Positions 19,544 through 28,922 of a DNA stretch of 46,399 nucleotides are shown one piece after another; the first letter of the stretch is position 1, and the number at the start of each line of letters is the position of its first letter. The DNA is from Balneolaceae bacterium. GTDB taxonomy: Bacteria > Bacteroidota > Rhodothermia > Balneolales > Balneolaceae. The translations under genes and the position numbers were made by a program. Location: assembly GCA_007693395.1 (NCBI GenBank), contig REDS01000091.1, positions 1 to 46,399 on the forward strand, written 5' to 3'. The notes under the pieces were generated by a model that saw nothing but the letters and a program-made list of their open reading frames with translations, made no database searches and was not told where the DNA came from.

Positions 19544-20755
19544 CTAACTTTCCCGCAAGGGTAGCGTAACTGTAAATTCCGAGCCTTCTCCTTCTTTGCT
19601 TTTTATTTGCAGTGTGCCACCAAAAAAATCTACAAATCGTTTAATTATTGTAACACCTATACCTGTACTCTCTGCTTTTATTGTTTTGTTAGTATTACCG
19701 GTTACTTCTCCATTCAGAACCATCTCAGTGAGCTCTTCACTCATGCCGATGCCGTTGTCTTTAACTTTCAAAATCAAACTTTTAGAACCGTTATGCCCAA
19801 CAACCTCAATTGTACTTTTAACGAATCCGCCATTTTCGGTATACTTTATAGAATTAGACAACAGGTTTCCAAAAATCTGCTCAAATTTCTCTTTGTCTAA
19901 TACTATTTTTTTGATTGATTCCCCGCCCGTAATATCAAGCTCTATATTCTTAAATCGTGCAAGTGGTTCATATAGCTCTTTAGCTTTGTTAATGCTCTCA
20001 TTAAGGTCAATCTCTTCTCGGTTTAGGTTTATCCCTTCGGTTTTGAAAAGAGCGTAATTCAAAATTCCGCTTATCATCTGTTTTAATTGTACAGCACTTC
20101 GGTTTATCCCCGAAATTATCTCTCTTGATTCATCTTTTTTAAAATTATCTTCATCAGAAAGAACCATAAGCTCTGATAAGCCGATTATTCCATTTAAAGG
20201 GGCCCTCAAATCGTGGCTCAATATTTTCATCAACTGTACCTGATGCTGATTGAGTTTTTGCAGTGCTTCGTTTTGTTTGCGAAGTTCAAGATGAGCCATA
20301 ACCTGGTTGGCCAATATTCGCAATTGGCTCTTTTTTTCTGCATCGAGTGTTTTGGGAATATAGTCTAATACGCACAACGTGCCTATGATATTCCCTTCAC
20401 TATCTTCTAATGGTGCTCCGAGATAATATCTGAATTTCGGGTCGTGTTTTATGTAGGGAATCTCTTTAAATCGTTCATCCGCAGAAAGGTCAGGTACTTC
20501 GAATAGGTCGTTTTTTTGTATGGCATATTGACAAATTGTTTGGCTTCGCGGAACCCTGCGATAGTTCTTTGCAATACCATAAACAGATTTTGACCACTGT
20601 TCATGCTCATCAATAAAGTTTATGAGAGATACAGGAGAATTACAGATTGTTGCGGCAAGCAGAGTTAACTCATCATACTCTTTTTCTGAATCGGTATAAA
20701 TAATATTATACGAATCAAGAGCTTTTACACGCTTTAATTCTATAGTTTCTGCCAT
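19544..20755 (-). CDS. GAF-domain sensor histidine kinase
   Basis: A 403-residue soluble kinase. Residues ~20-155 form a GAF domain of the group with VSLINFIDEHEQWSKSVYG and RSQTICQYAI, sensing an unknown small ligand or redox state (Cys75 lies in this segment). A coiled linker leads to HisKA with phosphoacceptor His181 in ILSHDLRAPLNGIIG, then HATPase_c with N-box FGNLLSNSIKYT, G1 KDNGIGM and G2 STGIGVTI, all intact. It has no membrane segment. It is the last gene of the signalling island, 23 bases after a receiver-only protein, and is the only conventional HisKA-type kinase there, so it is a natural phosphodonor for that receiver. Confidence 0.92.
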   Translation of the reverse strand: MAETIELKRVKALDSYNIIYTDSEKEYDELTLLAATICNSPVSLINFIDEHEQWSKSVYGIAKNYRRVPRSQTICQYAIQKNDLFEVPDLSADERFKEIPYIKHDPKFRYYLGAPLEDSEGNIIGTLCVLDYIPKTLDAEKKSQLRILANQVMAHLELRKQNEALQKLNQHQVQLMKILSHDLRAPLNGIIGLSELMVLSDEDNFKKDESREIISGINRSAVQLKQMISGILNYALFKTEGINLNREEIDLNESINKAKELYEPLARFKNIELDITGGESIKKIVLDKEKFEQIFGNLLSNSIKYTENGGFVKSTIEVVGHNGSKSLILKVKDNGIGMSEELTEMVLNGEVTGNTNKTIKAESTGIGVTIIKRFVDFFGGTLQIKSKEGEGSEFTVTLPLRES

Positions 20756-20778: not shown

Positions 20779-21165
20779 TTACTGTTGATTCAAAATATTA
20801 ACGCTTGTGAGAAGATCTCGCAGTTCGTTCAGATTAAACGGCTTTACGAGGTAACCAAGATAGTTTGTGTTTTCAATTTGTTTGGTGTAATACCTGTCTG
20901 AATTTCCCGTAACATAGATTACCTGCACATCATGATTGCCATTTAGTGTGTTAACCACATCAATACCTGTTGACTCTTCATCCAGATTTATATCTACAAA
21001 CAAAAGTTCAGGTTTAAACTCATCAATTAATCTTACGGCTTGTTTGTATGAGTGGGCTTTTTCAATCTGATTAAAACCCATTTTATTCACTACTGTCTCT
21101 AAGTACAATGCTTGTATAGCATTATCTTCTATAATTAGAATTCTCATTTGTTTTTTCTCTTTCAT
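20779..21165 (-). CDS. Single-domain response regulator
   Basis: A 128-residue receiver with no output domain. Acidic pocket residues are in IIEDN (11-15), the phosphoacceptor is Asp58 (LLFVDINLD), the switch threonine is in IYVTGNSD, and the conserved lysine is in YLVKPF. It should therefore be phosphorylatable and act by protein contact, as CheY- or Spo0F-like regulators do. The start overlaps the stop of the HisKA_2 protein upstream (ATGA), so they are co-translated. Because that partner seems unable to bind ATP, the neighbouring GAF kinase, 23 bases downstream, may be the actual donor; the HisKA_2 protein could act as phosphatase or relay. This assignment is an inference. Confidence 0.92.
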   Translation of the reverse strand: MKEKKQMRILIIEDNAIQALYLETVVNKMGFNQIEKAHSYKQAVRLIDEFKPELLFVDINLDEESTGIDVVNTLNGNHDVQVIYVTGNSDRYYTKQIENTNYLGYLVKPFNLNELRDLLTSVNILNQQ

Positions 21166-23348
21166 GTATTTAGTAGATTATCTCTTCTTGTAATTGCACT
21201 ACTCGACCCTCTAAGGTTCTCTGTGCGTTTGAAATAGATAACTACGCTGTTTTTACCATTTGTTGTGTAGTTAATCTCTCCATCCATCTGTTTGATGAAA
21301 GTATCAATTAATAGTCTATGGAATGCGTGCGATTCATCCGGCGCATCAGACTTTTCAAAATTCTTCTCTAAACCTTCAATTTCAAGTTTAACATCATTCC
21401 CGGTGTGAGTAAGATTGATATTAATCTTGTTATTTGTACCTGTATCATCTGTGGCTTTCATTTGAATAAGCTCGTTAATTACAAGCCCCAGCGGTACCGC
21501 CTGATTTAGGTTAAGCATAATTCGCCGTGAACTTTCAGTTCTTTTTATACTTAACTTCTTTTCTCCTGCTACATAAGACATAGATCCAATGATGGAATCC
21601 AGATACTCATTGAATTCAATCTGAACTACATCTTTTTGCTGATAAAGTGTTTCATGGATTTTTGCAATAGAAAAGATACGGCTGTGAGCCTCTTCAATTT
21701 TTTGTTGCACAACCTCATTTTTCTCATAAATAACCTGAAGTTCAAGCAACCCTGCAATGATGGCGAGATTGTTTTTCACTCTGTGGTGGAGTTCCTGCAA
21801 AAGAACATTTTTCTCATCTAATGATGATTGCAACTGCTGTTCAAGCTTCTTTTGCTCTGTCAGATCAACATATATTCCGTAAGCTGCTATAACCTCTCCA
21901 TGGCTCCAAATAGGTACCGTACTCACCAAAACCGGAACAGTATTTCTATGCTTCGTGAAACGTGTTGTTTCTTGCTGGTGAGCAAAACCTGAGATAGATC
22001 TATTGCTAACCTCCTCTGCTTCCTCAGCATTTTTATCTGATGTGATTAACGCATTAACATTTTGCCCGATTATTTCTTCGGACTCATAACCAAAAAGTGT
22101 TGTAAAGCCATTATTTACTTTCTGCACCCTGTTTTGCAGATCAATCATAACCATTGCGAGCGGTGAATTTTCAAAAAGCTGGGTCATGAGGGCAAAATTT
22201 CTCTCTCTTTCCAACTCAGATGTAAGAAACTCGGTAATATCAACACCTGTGCTTACAAGGTATTCTTCTTCTTCACTTTTAAACCTGTTAATGTAGAGGT
22301 GGAAAGAACGTATTCCGTTATTTTTGGAAAGAATCTGAGTAACAAACCCATTATTACCATATTCATATGCATTGTTAAACATCTCTTCAGCCCTTCCTCT
22401 CTCATCTTCTTTGAAGATTTCGAGGATACTCATTGTCTGCAGTTCATTTTCATTGTAACCCAGCTCTTTTTCGATAGAATCATTCCATCGAATCAACTTC
22501 CCATTACTATCAAGCACAAAGAAAATTCCGGGAATACTATCCAGCACAGTTTTTGTGAATCGGCGTTCTTCTTCAAGAAAATATTCAACCTGCTTTTCGA
22601 GTGTAATATCTCTGAATGTATTAATTACCTTCTGGCTATCATGTTCATCATTATATACAACAGAGATTATTTCAACAGGTACTGTATATCCGTCTTTGTG
22701 CACGTACTCTCTTTCGCCCTCGTAGATCGACTCTTCTTCCCGGATTCGCTGCATCTCACCATTGGCAGCATTGTTTTCATCTACAATCAACTTCCGGCCT
22801 CCGCGCATTAACTCCTCTTTTGTATAGCCCAGTATTTTACATGCAGCAGGATTTGCATCAAAAATATTCCCATCAGGCGAACCCAAAATGATTCCTGATA
22901 CCGAATGCTGAAATTGTTGGCTATACCTCTCTTCTGATTCCCGCAGCAGCTTTATGGTTCGCATATTTGCGGTTACATCATCAAAAATTACTAATGCAAG
23001 CGGTTCATCTGTGTCAATTGCTGAAATGGATATTTTACACCAGGTTCTAATATCACCATTCATAGCCATTGTCATTTCAAGAGACTCTCTCTCGCCGTCT
23101 AAAACTTCCCTAAGGCCAATTAATAGTTTGAGAGCGTAGTCATTGCCTTGTTCTGCAGCTTTACGGCAATGGGAAAAGTAGTTGTTAGTATCTCTCTCTA
23201 ATCCAAGCCAATTTGAGCATTTACGGTTTGCATCCCAATTACTATTAGAACAAATGATCTCACCGTTAGCATCTACTATTGCTGCTGCGCCGGGCAATGC
23301 TTTTAGAATAGCACTCTCTTCTTTCAATAAACTCTGTTGTTTAGCCAC
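21162..23348 (-). CDS. Four-PAS HisKA_2 sensor protein with degenerate ATPase domain
   Basis: A 728-residue soluble protein with four PAS domains (roughly 10-130, 140-260, 265-380, 385-500) and a HisKA_2 dimerisation domain whose phosphoacceptor His522 is intact (ELHHRVKNN). The following ATPase domain keeps the strand PLGLVINEL, but the family's T-N-A/S x K-H segment (N-box) is replaced by IQMKATDD (628-635), no DNGxG or other G1 box exists (LEIEGLEKNF instead), and the glycine-rich G2 is replaced by SHAFHRLLID. The last helix and strand (IKQMDGEINY, VVIYFK) still align, so this is decay by substitution rather than truncation. It probably cannot autophosphorylate. It overlaps the receiver gene by ATGA. 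Confidence 0.85.
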   Translation of the reverse strand: MAKQQSLLKEESAILKALPGAAAIVDANGEIICSNSNWDANRKCSNWLGLERDTNNYFSHCRKAAEQGNDYALKLLIGLREVLDGERESLEMTMAMNGDIRTWCKISISAIDTDEPLALVIFDDVTANMRTIKLLRESEERYSQQFQHSVSGIILGSPDGNIFDANPAACKILGYTKEELMRGGRKLIVDENNAANGEMQRIREEESIYEGEREYVHKDGYTVPVEIISVVYNDEHDSQKVINTFRDITLEKQVEYFLEEERRFTKTVLDSIPGIFFVLDSNGKLIRWNDSIEKELGYNENELQTMSILEIFKEDERGRAEEMFNNAYEYGNNGFVTQILSKNNGIRSFHLYINRFKSEEEEYLVSTGVDITEFLTSELERERNFALMTQLFENSPLAMVMIDLQNRVQKVNNGFTTLFGYESEEIIGQNVNALITSDKNAEEAEEVSNRSISGFAHQQETTRFTKHRNTVPVLVSTVPIWSHGEVIAAYGIYVDLTEQKKLEQQLQSSLDEKNVLLQELHHRVKNNLAIIAGLLELQVIYEKNEVVQQKIEEAHSRIFSIAKIHETLYQQKDVVQIEFNEYLDSIIGSMSYVAGEKKLSIKRTESSRRIMLNLNQAVPLGLVINELIQMKATDDTGTNNKININLTHTGNDVKLEIEGLEKNFEKSDAPDESHAFHRLLIDTFIKQMDGEINYTTNGKNSVVIYFKRTENLRGSSSAITRRDNLLNT

Positions 23349-23486: not shown

Positions 23487-23897
23487 TTACTTAGCCAGTA
23501 AATAAGAAGGCACATAGCGGTCACCTCTTACCACTTTCCTGATAGCTTCATTGAGCTCGTCTTTAGTTGGTTCGTAATAAACGTATCCGTTTACTCCAAA
23601 CTCAAAAAGTGGTTTAACCAGATTGGCAGAACGATACATGTGAAGTGCAATAATAGCTGCATCACTGTGAAGATTTTTTAACTCATTAATAATTTTTTTG
23701 GCGGGAGCATCAACCCCCATTAAATCCAAAATTATCAGAAATCTCTCTTTTAATTTAGTAATAGATAATACGTCATCAGGATCAATCACAAACGTATTAA
23801 CGTCAACACCGAAGCTATTTTTGATGAGCTCTTCAATTATCGATGCACGAACTTTTTGCGTAGATACAATTGCAATATTCTCTATATCCTGACCCAT
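23487..23897 (-). CDS. Lone degenerate receiver domain protein
   Basis: A 136-residue protein with the fold pattern of a NarL-type receiver but no helix-turn-helix. Asp58 is kept in LIILDLMGVD, and the C-terminal GVNGYVYYEPTKDELNEAIRKVVRGDRYVPSYL follows the GAsGYLLKd...eL pattern. However, the usual acidic pair at the end of strand 1 is missing (IAIVSTQ), the switch Thr/Ser position is occupied by His (IIALHMY) and the invariant Lys is replaced (GYVYYEP). Without the acidic pair Mg binding and phosphorylation are unlikely. It may sequester a kinase or bind another regulator. Its leader carries an 11-A run on the coding strand (23949-23959). Confidence 0.75.
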   Translation of the reverse strand: MGQDIENIAIVSTQKVRASIIEELIKNSFGVDVNTFVIDPDDVLSITKLKERFLIILDLMGVDAPAKKIINELKNLHSDAAIIALHMYRSANLVKPLFEFGVNGYVYYEPTKDELNEAIRKVVRGDRYVPSYLLAK

Positions 23898-24029: not shown

Positions 24030-24689
24030 TTACTTTTGGGGGGGTGCTATAATGTTATGCTGGAATGCGTATTTCACAAGGCCTGCGGTATTTCTTGCTC
24101 CTGTTTTTTGCAACAGGTTTCTGCGATGCGCATCTACTGTTCTGGGGCTTATAAAAAGCTTCTCTGCAATTTCATGGTTAGTAAATTCCTGTACGATTAG
24201 CTCCAGGATTTCAAGCTCTCTGTCGGTAATGTGTACAGAATCAGGTGAAGTTGGTTTACCTTTCCCCTTTACAAGATCCATCATAATGCTATGCGTTGCT
24301 TCATCACTGAAATAATGTTTTCCATTCATGATAGAATAGATCGCATCTTTCAGTTCATTTCGCCCTGCACTTTTCATGATGTAGCCCGATGCACCCGCTT
24401 GAATCATCTGCCTGATGTGTAGGTCATCATTACTCATGGTCAGTGCTAAGACTTTCACATCCGGGTAGGCATTTTTAATCTCTTTAGTTGCCGTAATACC
24501 ATCCATTTCAGGCATATTTATGTCCATTATCACAATATCAATCAGTGTTTCTTCAAGCTGCTTCAACGCCTCGGCACCGTTATTTGCTTCAGCTACTACA
24601 TCAATACCAACCTGCGTATCGAGCATTAACTTAATTCCATCCCGAACAATTTTATGGTCGTCTGCCAATAGAACTTTTACATTTGCCAT
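24030..24689 (-). CDS. NarL/FixJ-family response regulator
   Basis: A 219-residue regulator. The receiver has DD at 10-11, phosphoacceptor Asp56 (IVIMDINMPEMDG), switch Thr in ALTMSNDD and Lys in GYIMKSAG. The C-terminal LuxR-type HTH has ITDRELEILELIVQEFTNHEIAEKLFISPRTVDAHRRN. It lies 15 bases downstream of the nine-PAS HisKA_3 kinase, its expected cognate. Targets are unknown; the island itself is a reasonable candidate. The last codons run through a C7 tract on the coding strand, which could slip without affecting the DNA-binding domain. It is followed by a 132-base gap before the degenerate receiver, so that gene may have its own promoter. Confidence 0.95.
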   Translation of the reverse strand: MANVKVLLADDHKIVRDGIKLMLDTQVGIDVVAEANNGAEALKQLEETLIDIVIMDINMPEMDGITATKEIKNAYPDVKVLALTMSNDDLHIRQMIQAGASGYIMKSAGRNELKDAIYSIMNGKHYFSDEATHSIMMDLVKGKGKPTSPDSVHITDRELEILELIVQEFTNHEIAEKLFISPRTVDAHRRNLLQKTGARNTAGLVKYAFQHNIIAPPQK

Positions 24690-24704: not shown

Positions 24705-27700
24705 TTATAGCGGTACTACAACACTCACAATTGTACCGCGTCCCTTGTTACTTATAATATCGAGCTCAGCTGCCATAACCGCTACCCTTGTTCGCATACT
24801 GCGTATTCCAAGGCCAAAATGGCTTTCATCATTTAAATCGAACCCTACACCATTATCTTCTACGGTAAGAAGAAGCTCTTTATCTGAATATACCAATTGT
24901 ACATCAATTCGCTTAGCCTTCCCATGCCTGATTGCATTGTTTATTGCTTCCTGAAATATACGATATAAATTTATCTGAACTTTATCAGATATTTCTGTGT
25001 CTCCAAGGTTATTGTAATAGTAAAAATCAATTTCATTGCTGTTTTTAAGATGGCTGATGAGTGATTCTATAGCCAGCTCAAGGCCATAATCCTGAATTGC
25101 TTTGGGTAATAAATTCTGAGAAATATTTCTCGTTTCTGATATAGCGTGGCTCAAAAATTCCAGGCCCGACTGATAAGCACCGTACAACCTTTCGGGGATT
25201 TCAGGAAGGTCTTCAAAAACCGATTTTAAGTTCATATTTGCAGCCGATAAGTACTGCCCGAGGCCATCGTGCAGCTCTTTTGCTATGCGCTGCCGTTCCC
25301 GCTCCTCACCTTCAATGATGGCACTTATTGCGCGTTCTTCTGCCCGTCGTTGTTCTGTGATATCATGGGCAATCACCAGCCTCTGTATTTTTCCTTTGTA
25401 AAATATGTCTGAAGCAGATACTTCAACTATTAATTTTTCTCTATGTTTGGTAAGATGAGTCCATTCACCAAATGATGTTTTACCCCTGTTTTTTTTGACA
25501 TCCCGTTTTACATACTCAATATCACTTTCCGGCCTTATTGCAAACAGATCCAGTTCCAGTGCCTCATCTTTACTGAAGCCATACTTATCCGAGAATGAAT
25601 CATTTACTGCCGTAAAGCGATATGTTTCCGGATCAAAAATAATCATAGGTATTGGGTTCTGCTCAAAAAGCAGTCTGTATTGTTCCTCAGAAGCCTTTAA
25701 CTCCTCTTTAGATTTTACATCTGCTGTAATATCAGAAATGGTTCCTACCATGTTTAGTACATTTCCCTCATCATCTCTTAGAAAGTACCCCCGATCTATC
25801 ACCACGGAGTAATTACCAAAACCATTTTTAAACTGATAATACTCGAACCATGAACTATGCCCGGATTCCATTGATTTTTTTAGGCTTTCATATACCTTCT
25901 TAAGGTTATCAGGGTGCACATTTTTCTCCCACCAGCCAACGTTATTTTCAATCTCGTTATCCTTATAACCAAACCTCAGCTGCCAGCCCTCACTCCACCA
26001 AACGTGGCCGGTTTTATTATCCCAATCGTATAAAACATCGTTAGAAGATTTGGCAATCATCTCAAACTTATAACTCTGTTCTGCTAATGTTCTTCTGTAT
26101 TCCAATTCCTGGGTTTTATCAACCATTGCACCTATAATTCTAATAATGGCACCATCTTCATCTCTCAGGATGGTAGCACTATCTACTACAGTTTTTTTTG
26201 TGCCATCTGCTGCATAAAATTGATACTCTTCTGACCAAAACGTTGAGCCATCATTTTCAGCAGTTTCCATGCTATTTATGACACGTTGCTGGTCTTCCTC
26301 CGCAATTTTTTCATGCCAGAACCTATTATTACCCTCATATTCCTCTTTTGAGTAACCAAGCACAGATTCAATTCCAACTCCCCACCAAAGCATATTTGCC
26401 TCGGGATTCCACTCCCAAATCACATCACTTATAATATCTGCAGCTACTTCAAAACGTTTCTGTTCTTGTTGCAAATGATATTCCATCATTTTTATTTCGG
26501 TTATATCAAGCACTGTACCGGTAAAAATGTGTGCGTTGTTGTACTCGTCATAAATCCGTTTTCCCTTTACCTGCACAAAACCAATTTGCCCCCCCCTTTT
26601 GATAATTCTATGGTTCAGTTCAAAGCTTTTTTCTTCGATAAACTTCGAAATGGTTTTTTCCACTAAATCCATATCATCTGCGTGGGTCAACTCAACATAA
26701 TTTTCAATATTTGGGTTGAACTGAGCAGGGTCTTTATCGTAAATCTGATACACTATGTCTGACCACCAAAGCTCTTCGGTTTCAATATTTAGCGACCAAT
26801 ACCCTAAACGCGCAATTTCCTGAGCTTGTAAAAGCCTTTCCTGGTTACGTAACAATTCGTACTGCTGCTCTTTAATTTTGGAGATATCCTGTACTGTGCT
26901 AATCCGATACCCTCTTCCTGTGTCGGAATCTGTAACCAATGTGAGATTAATGAGCGCATCAAAAGTTGAACCATCTTTTCGCATCATTTCACTTTCAAAT
27001 ATGGTAAATCCAAATTCATCGAGCTCATTAATAATTCTGTCTACATCACCCTTCCATTTTTCAGAATAAAGCCTGTTTACAGACATTCCTTCCATTTCAT
27101 CCATCGAATATCCAAACAACTCTGCATAAGCTCCGTTAACCCTCTCAAGTTTATTGGCTTGATGGTTACTTACTGATAAACCGGTGTTTGATTGCAAGAA
27201 TACCTCTGCAAGTAACTGGTTTTCTTTTTCAAAGTTTACCCTGTCCGTAATATCCACATGAGTTCCTGCAAGCCTTACCGGTTTTCCTTCATCGCCCCAC
27301 TCAACCGTTCTGCCGCGATCTAAAATCCAAACCCAGTGGCCTTTCTTGTGTTTCATCCTCACTTCTACTTCATAGATTTCAGTTCTGCCTTCGAAGTAGT
27401 CATCTACTGCCTTTTTAAATCGCAGCAGATCATCAGGATGCACCAATTTGTTCCAGGTAGCTATTGATATTGGCTCCAGCTCCTCCTTACTATAGCCAAC
27501 AAGTATGGCCCACATTTCATCTATTTCAACCTGCCCGGTATGCGGGTACCACTCCCACGTGCCTACATTTGCGCTCGAGGTTGTAAGCTCCAGCCTTTCT
27601 TTACTCTTTTGGATGCTCTCTTCCAGGTTTTTTCTTTCGGTTATATCTACACCTATTCCAATTGATTTGTCTTCACTAATTTTGGCATTTATCCAGGTGG

Positions 27701-28922
27701 TATATAGTTTTTTTCCACTTTTGCTGATCAGTTCAAAGTCTGACCATTTACCCTCTGCCTCAGAAATTTCTGTTTTGCCCCTGTTATAATCTTCTTCCGT
27801 TGTTATCAATTGGAGAAGATTGCCTGTTTTTGCATCCTCATTGGTATATCCAATCTTCTCTTCAAAATACTTATTTACTGATGTTACAGTTGCTCTATCC
27901 CCATGCACATAGATGAAAACCGGCATACTGTCAAAAATTGCCTGCAGCTCTTCTCTTTCTGATTTTATCTGATTTTCAAGCTTTTTCCTCTCAGTTATAT
28001 CGTAACCCACTCCTACAAATGTATCGTTGCTCAGAATAATGTTGGTCCATAGCTGGTTTCTTACTTCACCACTCTTGGTATGCACTTCATACTCTTTCCA
28101 GCCCTTGTACATTTTTTTAATATCCTTTCTGATAACGTCTCTGTAGGCAGGGTCCGGATAACAAAGTTCCAAAAGTGAGCTCTGCTTCACATCCTCGTAG
28201 CTCCAGCCCAAAATATCTTGATGATATTTGTTGAACATGATCAGGTTTTGATTCTTGTCATAAATATTAATCAAAACCGGAATTCGGTCGAATAGCTTTT
28301 CGAGACGCTCTCTCTCTATTTTAAGTTGATGCTCTAACTCCCGGTTTTTGGTAACATCAATGGTAATACCACTCACTTTTTTTACGCTATCAGTTACTTC
28401 TGTTGGTTCTCCCTTTGTCCATAGCCATCGGGTTGATCCATCCGGCAATACAACCCTGTATTGCATAAAAAATTCTACTCCTTCTTTCAGAGTTTTTTCT
28501 GCAAGCCTGTTGAATTCATCAATGTCGTCTTCATGTATAACATCCAGAACCATCCCTATATTCAGATTTACACCTTCCCGAAACCCAAAAAGTGAATTAT
28601 GATTATTGGAAAGTATGTATGAATCGGTTTCAGGAAAATATTCCCAGGTTGCTATCTGCCCGGAGTTGAGTGCAAGATTCAGGCTCTTCTCTTTTTCCCG
28701 AAGTTTTCGCTCACTGCCGGCAATGTACTTTTCATAGCTCTTCATCATCAGAAAAAGAGCAACTGCAGTCATTGTAACATAGAAAAAGCCTTTTGCCGTC
28801 TGAAGTTGTGAAAGCAGAATAATATCATCGACAAGCCATTCCAGTATTTGATCCGTAGTTGCAATCCATACAGTAGCAAAGATCAGATAGATTACAGATA
28901 TGCGTAGTGGAGTAAATTTCAT
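24705..28922 (-). CDS. Membrane-anchored nine-PAS HisKA_3 sensor kinase
   Basis: A 1405-residue kinase. Two membrane segments (about 7-25 and 42-60) anchor it with almost no periplasmic part, so sensing is probably cytoplasmic or within the membrane. I count nine tandem PAS/PAC units between about 75 and 1190, most ending in a DITERK/DITD-type motif and a short coil. The kinase core is HisKA_3 with His1218 in RQRIAKELHDGLGQ, N-box EAINNAIRH (Asn about 1329) and G1 EDNGVGF, G2 FGLGIRSM, all intact. This is the NarL-partner class, and a NarL regulator follows 15 bases downstream. Ligands of the PAS units are unknown; I see no obvious haem or flavin signature. Confidence 0.94.
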   Translation of the reverse strand: MKFTPLRISVIYLIFATVWIATTDQILEWLVDDIILLSQLQTAKGFFYVTMTAVALFLMMKSYEKYIAGSERKLREKEKSLNLALNSGQIATWEYFPETDSYILSNNHNSLFGFREGVNLNIGMVLDVIHEDDIDEFNRLAEKTLKEGVEFFMQYRVVLPDGSTRWLWTKGEPTEVTDSVKKVSGITIDVTKNRELEHQLKIERERLEKLFDRIPVLINIYDKNQNLIMFNKYHQDILGWSYEDVKQSSLLELCYPDPAYRDVIRKDIKKMYKGWKEYEVHTKSGEVRNQLWTNIILSNDTFVGVGYDITERKKLENQIKSEREELQAIFDSMPVFIYVHGDRATVTSVNKYFEEKIGYTNEDAKTGNLLQLITTEEDYNRGKTEISEAEGKWSDFELISKSGKKLYTTWINAKISEDKSIGIGVDITERKNLEESIQKSKERLELTTSSANVGTWEWYPHTGQVEIDEMWAILVGYSKEELEPISIATWNKLVHPDDLLRFKKAVDDYFEGRTEIYEVEVRMKHKKGHWVWILDRGRTVEWGDEGKPVRLAGTHVDITDRVNFEKENQLLAEVFLQSNTGLSVSNHQANKLERVNGAYAELFGYSMDEMEGMSVNRLYSEKWKGDVDRIINELDEFGFTIFESEMMRKDGSTFDALINLTLVTDSDTGRGYRISTVQDISKIKEQQYELLRNQERLLQAQEIARLGYWSLNIETEELWWSDIVYQIYDKDPAQFNPNIENYVELTHADDMDLVEKTISKFIEEKSFELNHRIIKRGGQIGFVQVKGKRIYDEYNNAHIFTGTVLDITEIKMMEYHLQQEQKRFEVAADIISDVIWEWNPEANMLWWGVGIESVLGYSKEEYEGNNRFWHEKIAEEDQQRVINSMETAENDGSTFWSEEYQFYAADGTKKTVVDSATILRDEDGAIIRIIGAMVDKTQELEYRRTLAEQSYKFEMIAKSSNDVLYDWDNKTGHVWWSEGWQLRFGYKDNEIENNVGWWEKNVHPDNLKKVYESLKKSMESGHSSWFEYYQFKNGFGNYSVVIDRGYFLRDDEGNVLNMVGTISDITADVKSKEELKASEEQYRLLFEQNPIPMIIFDPETYRFTAVNDSFSDKYGFSKDEALELDLFAIRPESDIEYVKRDVKKNRGKTSFGEWTHLTKHREKLIVEVSASDIFYKGKIQRLVIAHDITEQRRAEERAISAIIEGEERERQRIAKELHDGLGQYLSAANMNLKSVFEDLPEIPERLYGAYQSGLEFLSHAISETRNISQNLLPKAIQDYGLELAIESLISHLKNSNEIDFYYYNNLGDTEISDKVQINLYRIFQEAINNAIRHGKAKRIDVQLVYSDKELLLTVEDNGVGFDLNDESHFGLGIRSMRTRVAVMAAELDIISNKGRGTIVSVVVPL

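Follow-up and report, generated by a model that had tools for sequence, protein, structure and literature searches.

Genes of the locus

The stretch of DNA analysed (the window) comprises 46,399 nucleotides of contig REDS01000091.1 from a Balneolaceae bacterium (GenBank assembly GCA_007693395.1); on its reverse strand lies a cluster of signalling genes (Table 1), the core of which runs in the order PAS-HisKA_3 kinase, NarL regulator, pseudo-receiver and histidine pseudokinase, with variable content downstream. Within the cluster, the NarL/LuxR-type regulator is better conserved than any other signalling protein. Also on this strand, near the cluster, an erythromycin-esterase family protein (PF05139; 15845-17137) is encoded, which is kept in the closest relatives, and further on a penicillin amidase family protein of 810 aa (PF01804; 12401-14833).

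Table 1. Signalling genes and pseudokinase segments, with positions in the window
Feature	Position	Strand	Characteristics or basis
Multi-PAS HisKA_3 kinase	24705..28922	-	LHDGL, N-box and DxGxG intact
NarL/LuxR-type response regulator	24030..24689	-	Intact receiver and GerE domain
Pseudo-receiver, NarL/LuxR-type REC fold	23487..23897	-	Acidic pair, switch Thr, Lys and DNA-binding domain all missing
Histidine pseudokinase	21162..23348	-	728 aa, GTG start; ORF, Pfam and orthologues
Pseudokinase, PAS sensor region, residues 1-500	21849..23348	-	Three above-threshold Pfam PAS stretches
Pseudokinase, HisKA_2 DHp helices, residues 497-570	21639..21860	-	Pfam PF07568, AF2 helices, dN/dS
Pseudokinase, H-box HHRVKNN, residues 521-527	21768..21788	-	Row alignment and position
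Pseudokinase, degenerate catalytic (GHKL-fold) domain, residues 574-711	21216..21629	-	AF2, PDB matches, no HATPase_c
Pseudokinase, ruined N-box NELIQMKATDD, residues 625-635	21444..21476	-	Asn in 0/41 degenerate and 14/14 intact proteins
Single-domain response regulator	20779..21165	-	Receiver residues ED, D, T and K all intact
GAF-HisKA-HATPase_c kinase	19544..20755	-	H, N, G1 and G2 boxes intact

The pseudo-receiver goes unmentioned in what the first-pass annotation of this DNA says of the pseudokinase. Its match to the Pfam Response_reg model reaches only 18 bits (cut-off 30.2), and its predicted fold (pLDDT 87.2) is that of a NarL/LuxR-type receiver. The acidic pair is missing, the switch Thr is replaced by His and the Lys by Tyr, while the Asp position is kept in the genus of the window and lost in Fodinibius. 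A profile built on it separates about 40 loci (at least 99.8 bits) from other regulators (at most 72 bits). The single-domain receiver has as its nearest named family the PhyR receiver (NCBIfam), with a score far below the curated cut-off.

A predicted kinase fold with an intact acceptor box and a ruined ATP site

The pseudokinase consists of PAS repeats, a HisKA_2 DHp domain, a degenerate GHKL domain and a C-terminal RGSSSA tail. Residues 519-590 match the HisKA_2 profile (PF07568) with 77.8 bits (cut-off 22.3), and the phosphoacceptor His522 is intact (21783-21785 on the reverse strand); for the following domain Pfam returned no HATPase_c match even at E≤1. The position of the Asn for Mg/ATP in the N-box is occupied by Met630, with the Glu of the "NE" retained; DxGxG and the G2 glycine are absent, AFHRLL standing at the G2 position. 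Thus the initial description of a HisKA_2 protein with an intact His522 and devoid of the N-box asparagine, DNGxG and G2 is borne out, as ORF, Pfam and an alignment of 41 rows agree. Weak Pfam matches (AcaB, YxiJ and coiled coils, for example) were taken as chance. The C-terminal motif, (R/K)GSSSS in general form (window 21162-21240, reverse strand, in the pseudokinase), is short; pseudokinases throughout the window's clade share it with some intact paralogues (loci L159 and L200), and it is possibly an interaction tail.

Orthologues were gathered within Balneolaceae, and the alignment set 41 degenerate proteins (40 genomes, 10 genera) against 14 intact paralogues. With a profile made from the C-terminal region, 33 loci score at least 248 bits and the next matches at most 215; divergent members in the genera g4, g8 and g21 fall below this gap and were recovered through their locus. 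The acceptor box HHRVKNN is invariant in both sets (41/41 and 14/14), including both His, the Arg, the Lys and the Asn in every degenerate protein. The N-box Asn is found in none of the 41 (mostly Leu, Ile, Met or Val instead) versus all 14 paralogues; the same holds for the G2 Gly (0/41 versus 14/14), and the G1 Asp is left in 6 of 41 versus 14 of 14. Structural positions persist: every one of the 41 degenerate proteins has, for example, the "NE" in its N-box helix and a Gln in its last helix. For 31 orthologous C-termini no HATPase_c model was reported at E≤0.1. Since 41 orthologues, taken from independent genomes, are all degenerate in this way, the loss of the ATP site is, on the evidence of the alignment, a fixed trait of the family and not a sequencing or assembly error. 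The earlier reading would have fallen had orthologues retained a standard N-box and DNGxG; they do not.

The AlphaFold2 model (mean pLDDT 74.1, pTM 0.68) has two DHp helices and a GHKL-like alpha/beta sandwich. Among solved structures it comes closest to EL346, a HisKA_2 kinase (4r39, Z 15.5, 177 residues, 4.2 Å; 4r3a, Z 15.3) that is also the sole PDB sequence match; the catalytic (CA) domain alone superimposes on kinase CA domains with approximately 2.7 Å over about 135 residues (Z 13-14.5). At this moderate model confidence, retention of the GHKL (Bergerat) fold is supported, and with it the earlier proposal that the fold is probably kept without ATP binding.

That the protein still works as a kinase in some unusual ATP mode appears highly improbable: the retained fold and the invariant Glu of the "NE" would suit such an activity, but none of the 41 members retains the N-box Asn or the G2 Gly, DxGxG is not kept and HATPase_c is not matched.

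In a tree, a single branch supported at 99/99 separates all 41 degenerate proteins from the rest, and the CA columns themselves contribute to this support; orthology is backed, independently of the tree, by the shared locus. Repeated independent losses are therefore unsupported, the degenerate proteins being one clade. A tree of the DHp alone, with its short alignment of 79 columns, needs two changes, and its starred branches are compatible with one origin.

Selective constraint was estimated by a counting method for one pair (the pseudokinase and an orthologue 91% identical to it), other pairs being saturated; dN/dS is 0 for the H-box, 0.023 for the DHp, 0.049 for the PAS region and 0.099 for the CA domain. 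The last value indicates, as far as sequence comparison can tell, that the CA domain is still under constraint and thus selected for something other than ATP. Mean pairwise identity is 0.76 for the H-box helix and 0.28 for the CA domain of the degenerate family, compared to 0.68 and 0.35 for the active paralogues; the two sets are unequal in relatedness, so that only the contrast between segments is meaningful. Decay of a gene on its way to being lost would fit its absence or truncation in four genomes (G051, G052, G061 and G063), but is scarcely credible given dN/dS values of 0.02-0.10 across the domains and a degenerate state common to 10 genera.

Partners of the pseudokinase and natural losses

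Next to the pseudokinase, the single-domain receiver is found at 24 of 25 loci of the window's clade (it is missing in G072) and at none of 16 in other lineages. The GAF-HisKA kinase lies downstream in most of the window's genus and in genus g17; in g4 it directly adjoins the pseudokinase, without the receiver. Two genomes have lost the pseudokinase by deletion and kept receiver, GAF kinase and pseudo-receiver (loci L193 in G063 and L194 in G052); in L195 (G051) pseudokinase, receiver and GAF kinase are all gone, and in L114 (G061) the C-terminal part of the pseudokinase was lost together with the other two. A receiver of the same type resides beside an intact HisKA_2 kinase at locus L162 of G009, a genome without a cis receiver at its pseudokinase.

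Since the receiver is missing from the other lineages a cis receiver is not required, and since it is kept without the pseudokinase in G063 and G052 it has a function of its own; both observations rule it out as an obligate partner. The competent receiver, which the first-pass annotation regarded as the partner, is thus a trait of the window and its clade only. The constant partners are instead the NarL/HisKA_3 pair and the degenerate receiver (nearly always present), which as a neighbour is more constant than the competent one. The two genes are closely spaced, but the 4-bp ATGA overlap of pseudokinase and receiver requires the receiver to start with MKEKKQ-, and is probably incidental because the closest orthologues, by sequence, lack this start and begin with M(K/R)ILI(I/V)ED.

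The pseudokinase could be a PAS-controlled scaffold without phosphate chemistry, which binds and sequesters NarL and/or the pseudo-receiver; the constant neighbours include a pseudo-receiver that is itself not normally phosphorylatable, a phosphodonor receiver in cis is missing from whole lineages, and there is precedent in PhyT, which binds unphosphorylated PhyR (PMC5898713). However, a His without chemistry would not be expected to stay wholly unchanged, along with the box around it, in 41 proteins as divergent as these, and we consider this scenario rather unlikely, though worth keeping in mind.

A similar arrangement in G035 (L200, 5545-12277) begins with a HisKA_3 kinase and a pair of NarL-type regulators, after which come a KaiC-like ATPase and then a HisKA_2 kinase that is intact. 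It has the look of an ancestral locus, but orthology is not claimed because the KaiC-like gene intervenes before the HisKA_2 kinase. Its second NarL-type regulator may show the origin of the pseudo-receiver.

Possible function and relation to known systems

From conserved residues, the predicted fold and analogy to described proteins, there is an even chance, in our estimate, that the pseudokinase is a PAS-gated histidine phosphotransferase of the PhyT/PhyK type. It would be a dimer, derived from a HisKA_2 kinase by loss of ATP binding and so unable to autophosphorylate; a receiver carrying phosphate would donate its phosphoryl group to His522 on the DHp bundle, which would hand it on or back. 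In the lineage of the window the donor might be the adjacent single-domain receiver, itself phosphorylated by the GAF-HisKA kinase next to it or by other kinases, and the likely acceptor or controlled protein would be the NarL-type regulator encoded at this locus. What is left of the catalytic domain may serve as a folded docking or regulatory domain, with the PAS domains setting direction or rate. Against a relay speaks the receiver's absence beside all 16 pseudokinases of other lineages, as well as in G072; in Fodinibius and g4, without a cis receiver, any phosphodonor must act in trans. NarL receivers normally pair with HisKA_3 kinases, one of which already adjoins NarL here, so that the path from the pseudokinase to NarL would be a putative second one.

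An intact DHp would also suit a dedicated phosphatase or phosphate sink, in which the HRxxN box drains the receiver and/or NarL without onward transfer. The HRVKN box is intact in 41 of 41 members, and an extra off-switch would be sensible given that NarL is invariably accompanied by its own active HisKA_3 kinase, but PhyT, the closest precedent, was without phosphatase activity when assayed (PMC5898713) and the sequence offers nothing to tell phosphatase from phosphotransferase; such a role thus seems possible but improbable. Among the roles initially suggested (phosphatase, phosphotransfer hub or decoy), phosphotransfer is favoured over a decoy by PhyK and PhyR as best NCBIfam matches, with phosphatase and decoy left as lesser possibilities.

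A bolder idea, held only tentatively and also doubtful, takes pseudokinase and pseudo-receiver for a fossil two-component pair which has lost catalysis on both sides and regulates the HisKA_3/NarL system, His522 being the entry port for phosphate from other receivers. If true, a whole bacterial family would have conserved a regulatory module of a pseudo-two-component kind.

In a search of the literature (most subscription journals lay outside it) no description of this pseudokinase family, of a "histidine pseudokinase" or of Balneolaceae two-component systems was found. Degenerate HisKA_2 phosphotransferases have been described from the alphaproteobacterial general stress response; what is new is a separately placed pseudokinase family in Balneolaceae that goes together with a pseudo-receiver and a NarL/HisKA_3 system, and for the whole of which the annotation "sensor histidine kinase" would be wrong. 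The natural series of loci with and without receiver, and with and without pseudokinase, allows the role of a dead kinase to be compared.

EL346, the best structural match, carries the PDB title "blue-light activated histidine kinase"; it is an active kinase, unlike the pseudokinase. The receivers of RcsB and DesR share with the pseudo-receiver the NarL/LuxR-type REC fold (predicted for the latter); the pseudo-receiver differs from them in that its acidic pair, switch Thr and Lys are missing, as is a DNA-binding domain. Among the Foldseek matches of the pseudokinase model are 4qpj and 4qpk, in which the structure of a bacterial phosphotransferase was determined together with a receiver domain. 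ChpT and Spo0B, histidine phosphotransferases that act as dimers, have also been described as histidine kinases that degenerated (PMC5898713), but are small relay proteins unlike the pseudokinase; the Pfam model HPTransfase (ChpT) has no match in the family, and SPOB_a matches only 3 of 31 members, at E 0.061.

PhyK is the best non-PAS NCBIfam match of the pseudokinase, but with 80.9 bits against a cut-off of 750 the protein falls outside the PhyK equivalog (NF051872). PhyK and LovK of Caulobacter crescentus act as phosphotransferases between the single-domain MrrA and PhyR/LovR, and ATP-site mutants still relay (PMC5964349); their CA domain with G1 and G2 boxes is conserved, whereas in the pseudokinase these boxes are gone. 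The adjacent receiver does not contain the FATGUY motif PFxFATG(G/Y) of SdrG and MrrA, VIYVTGNS being found there.

Closest is PhyT (formerly PhyP) of Sphingomonas melonis Fr1, whose ATPase domain is degenerated and whose His relays phosphate from SdrG, a single-domain regulator, to PhyR (PMC5898713). Both proteins have an HRxxN (HWE/HisKA_2) DHp with intact His and a degenerated ATPase domain, and both genes lie beside a response regulator, PhyT working with a single-domain one. PhyT differs in its membrane anchor, its putative periplasmic sensor and its control of PhyR/NepR/EcfG; among the neighbours of the pseudokinase that were scanned no PhyR-type output regulator was found, and Pfam shows PAS repeats from its N-terminus onwards. 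The pseudokinase is thus set apart from PhyT by a PAS-repeat sensor, a NarL/LuxR-type output candidate, the presence of a pseudo-receiver and its Balneolaceae host.
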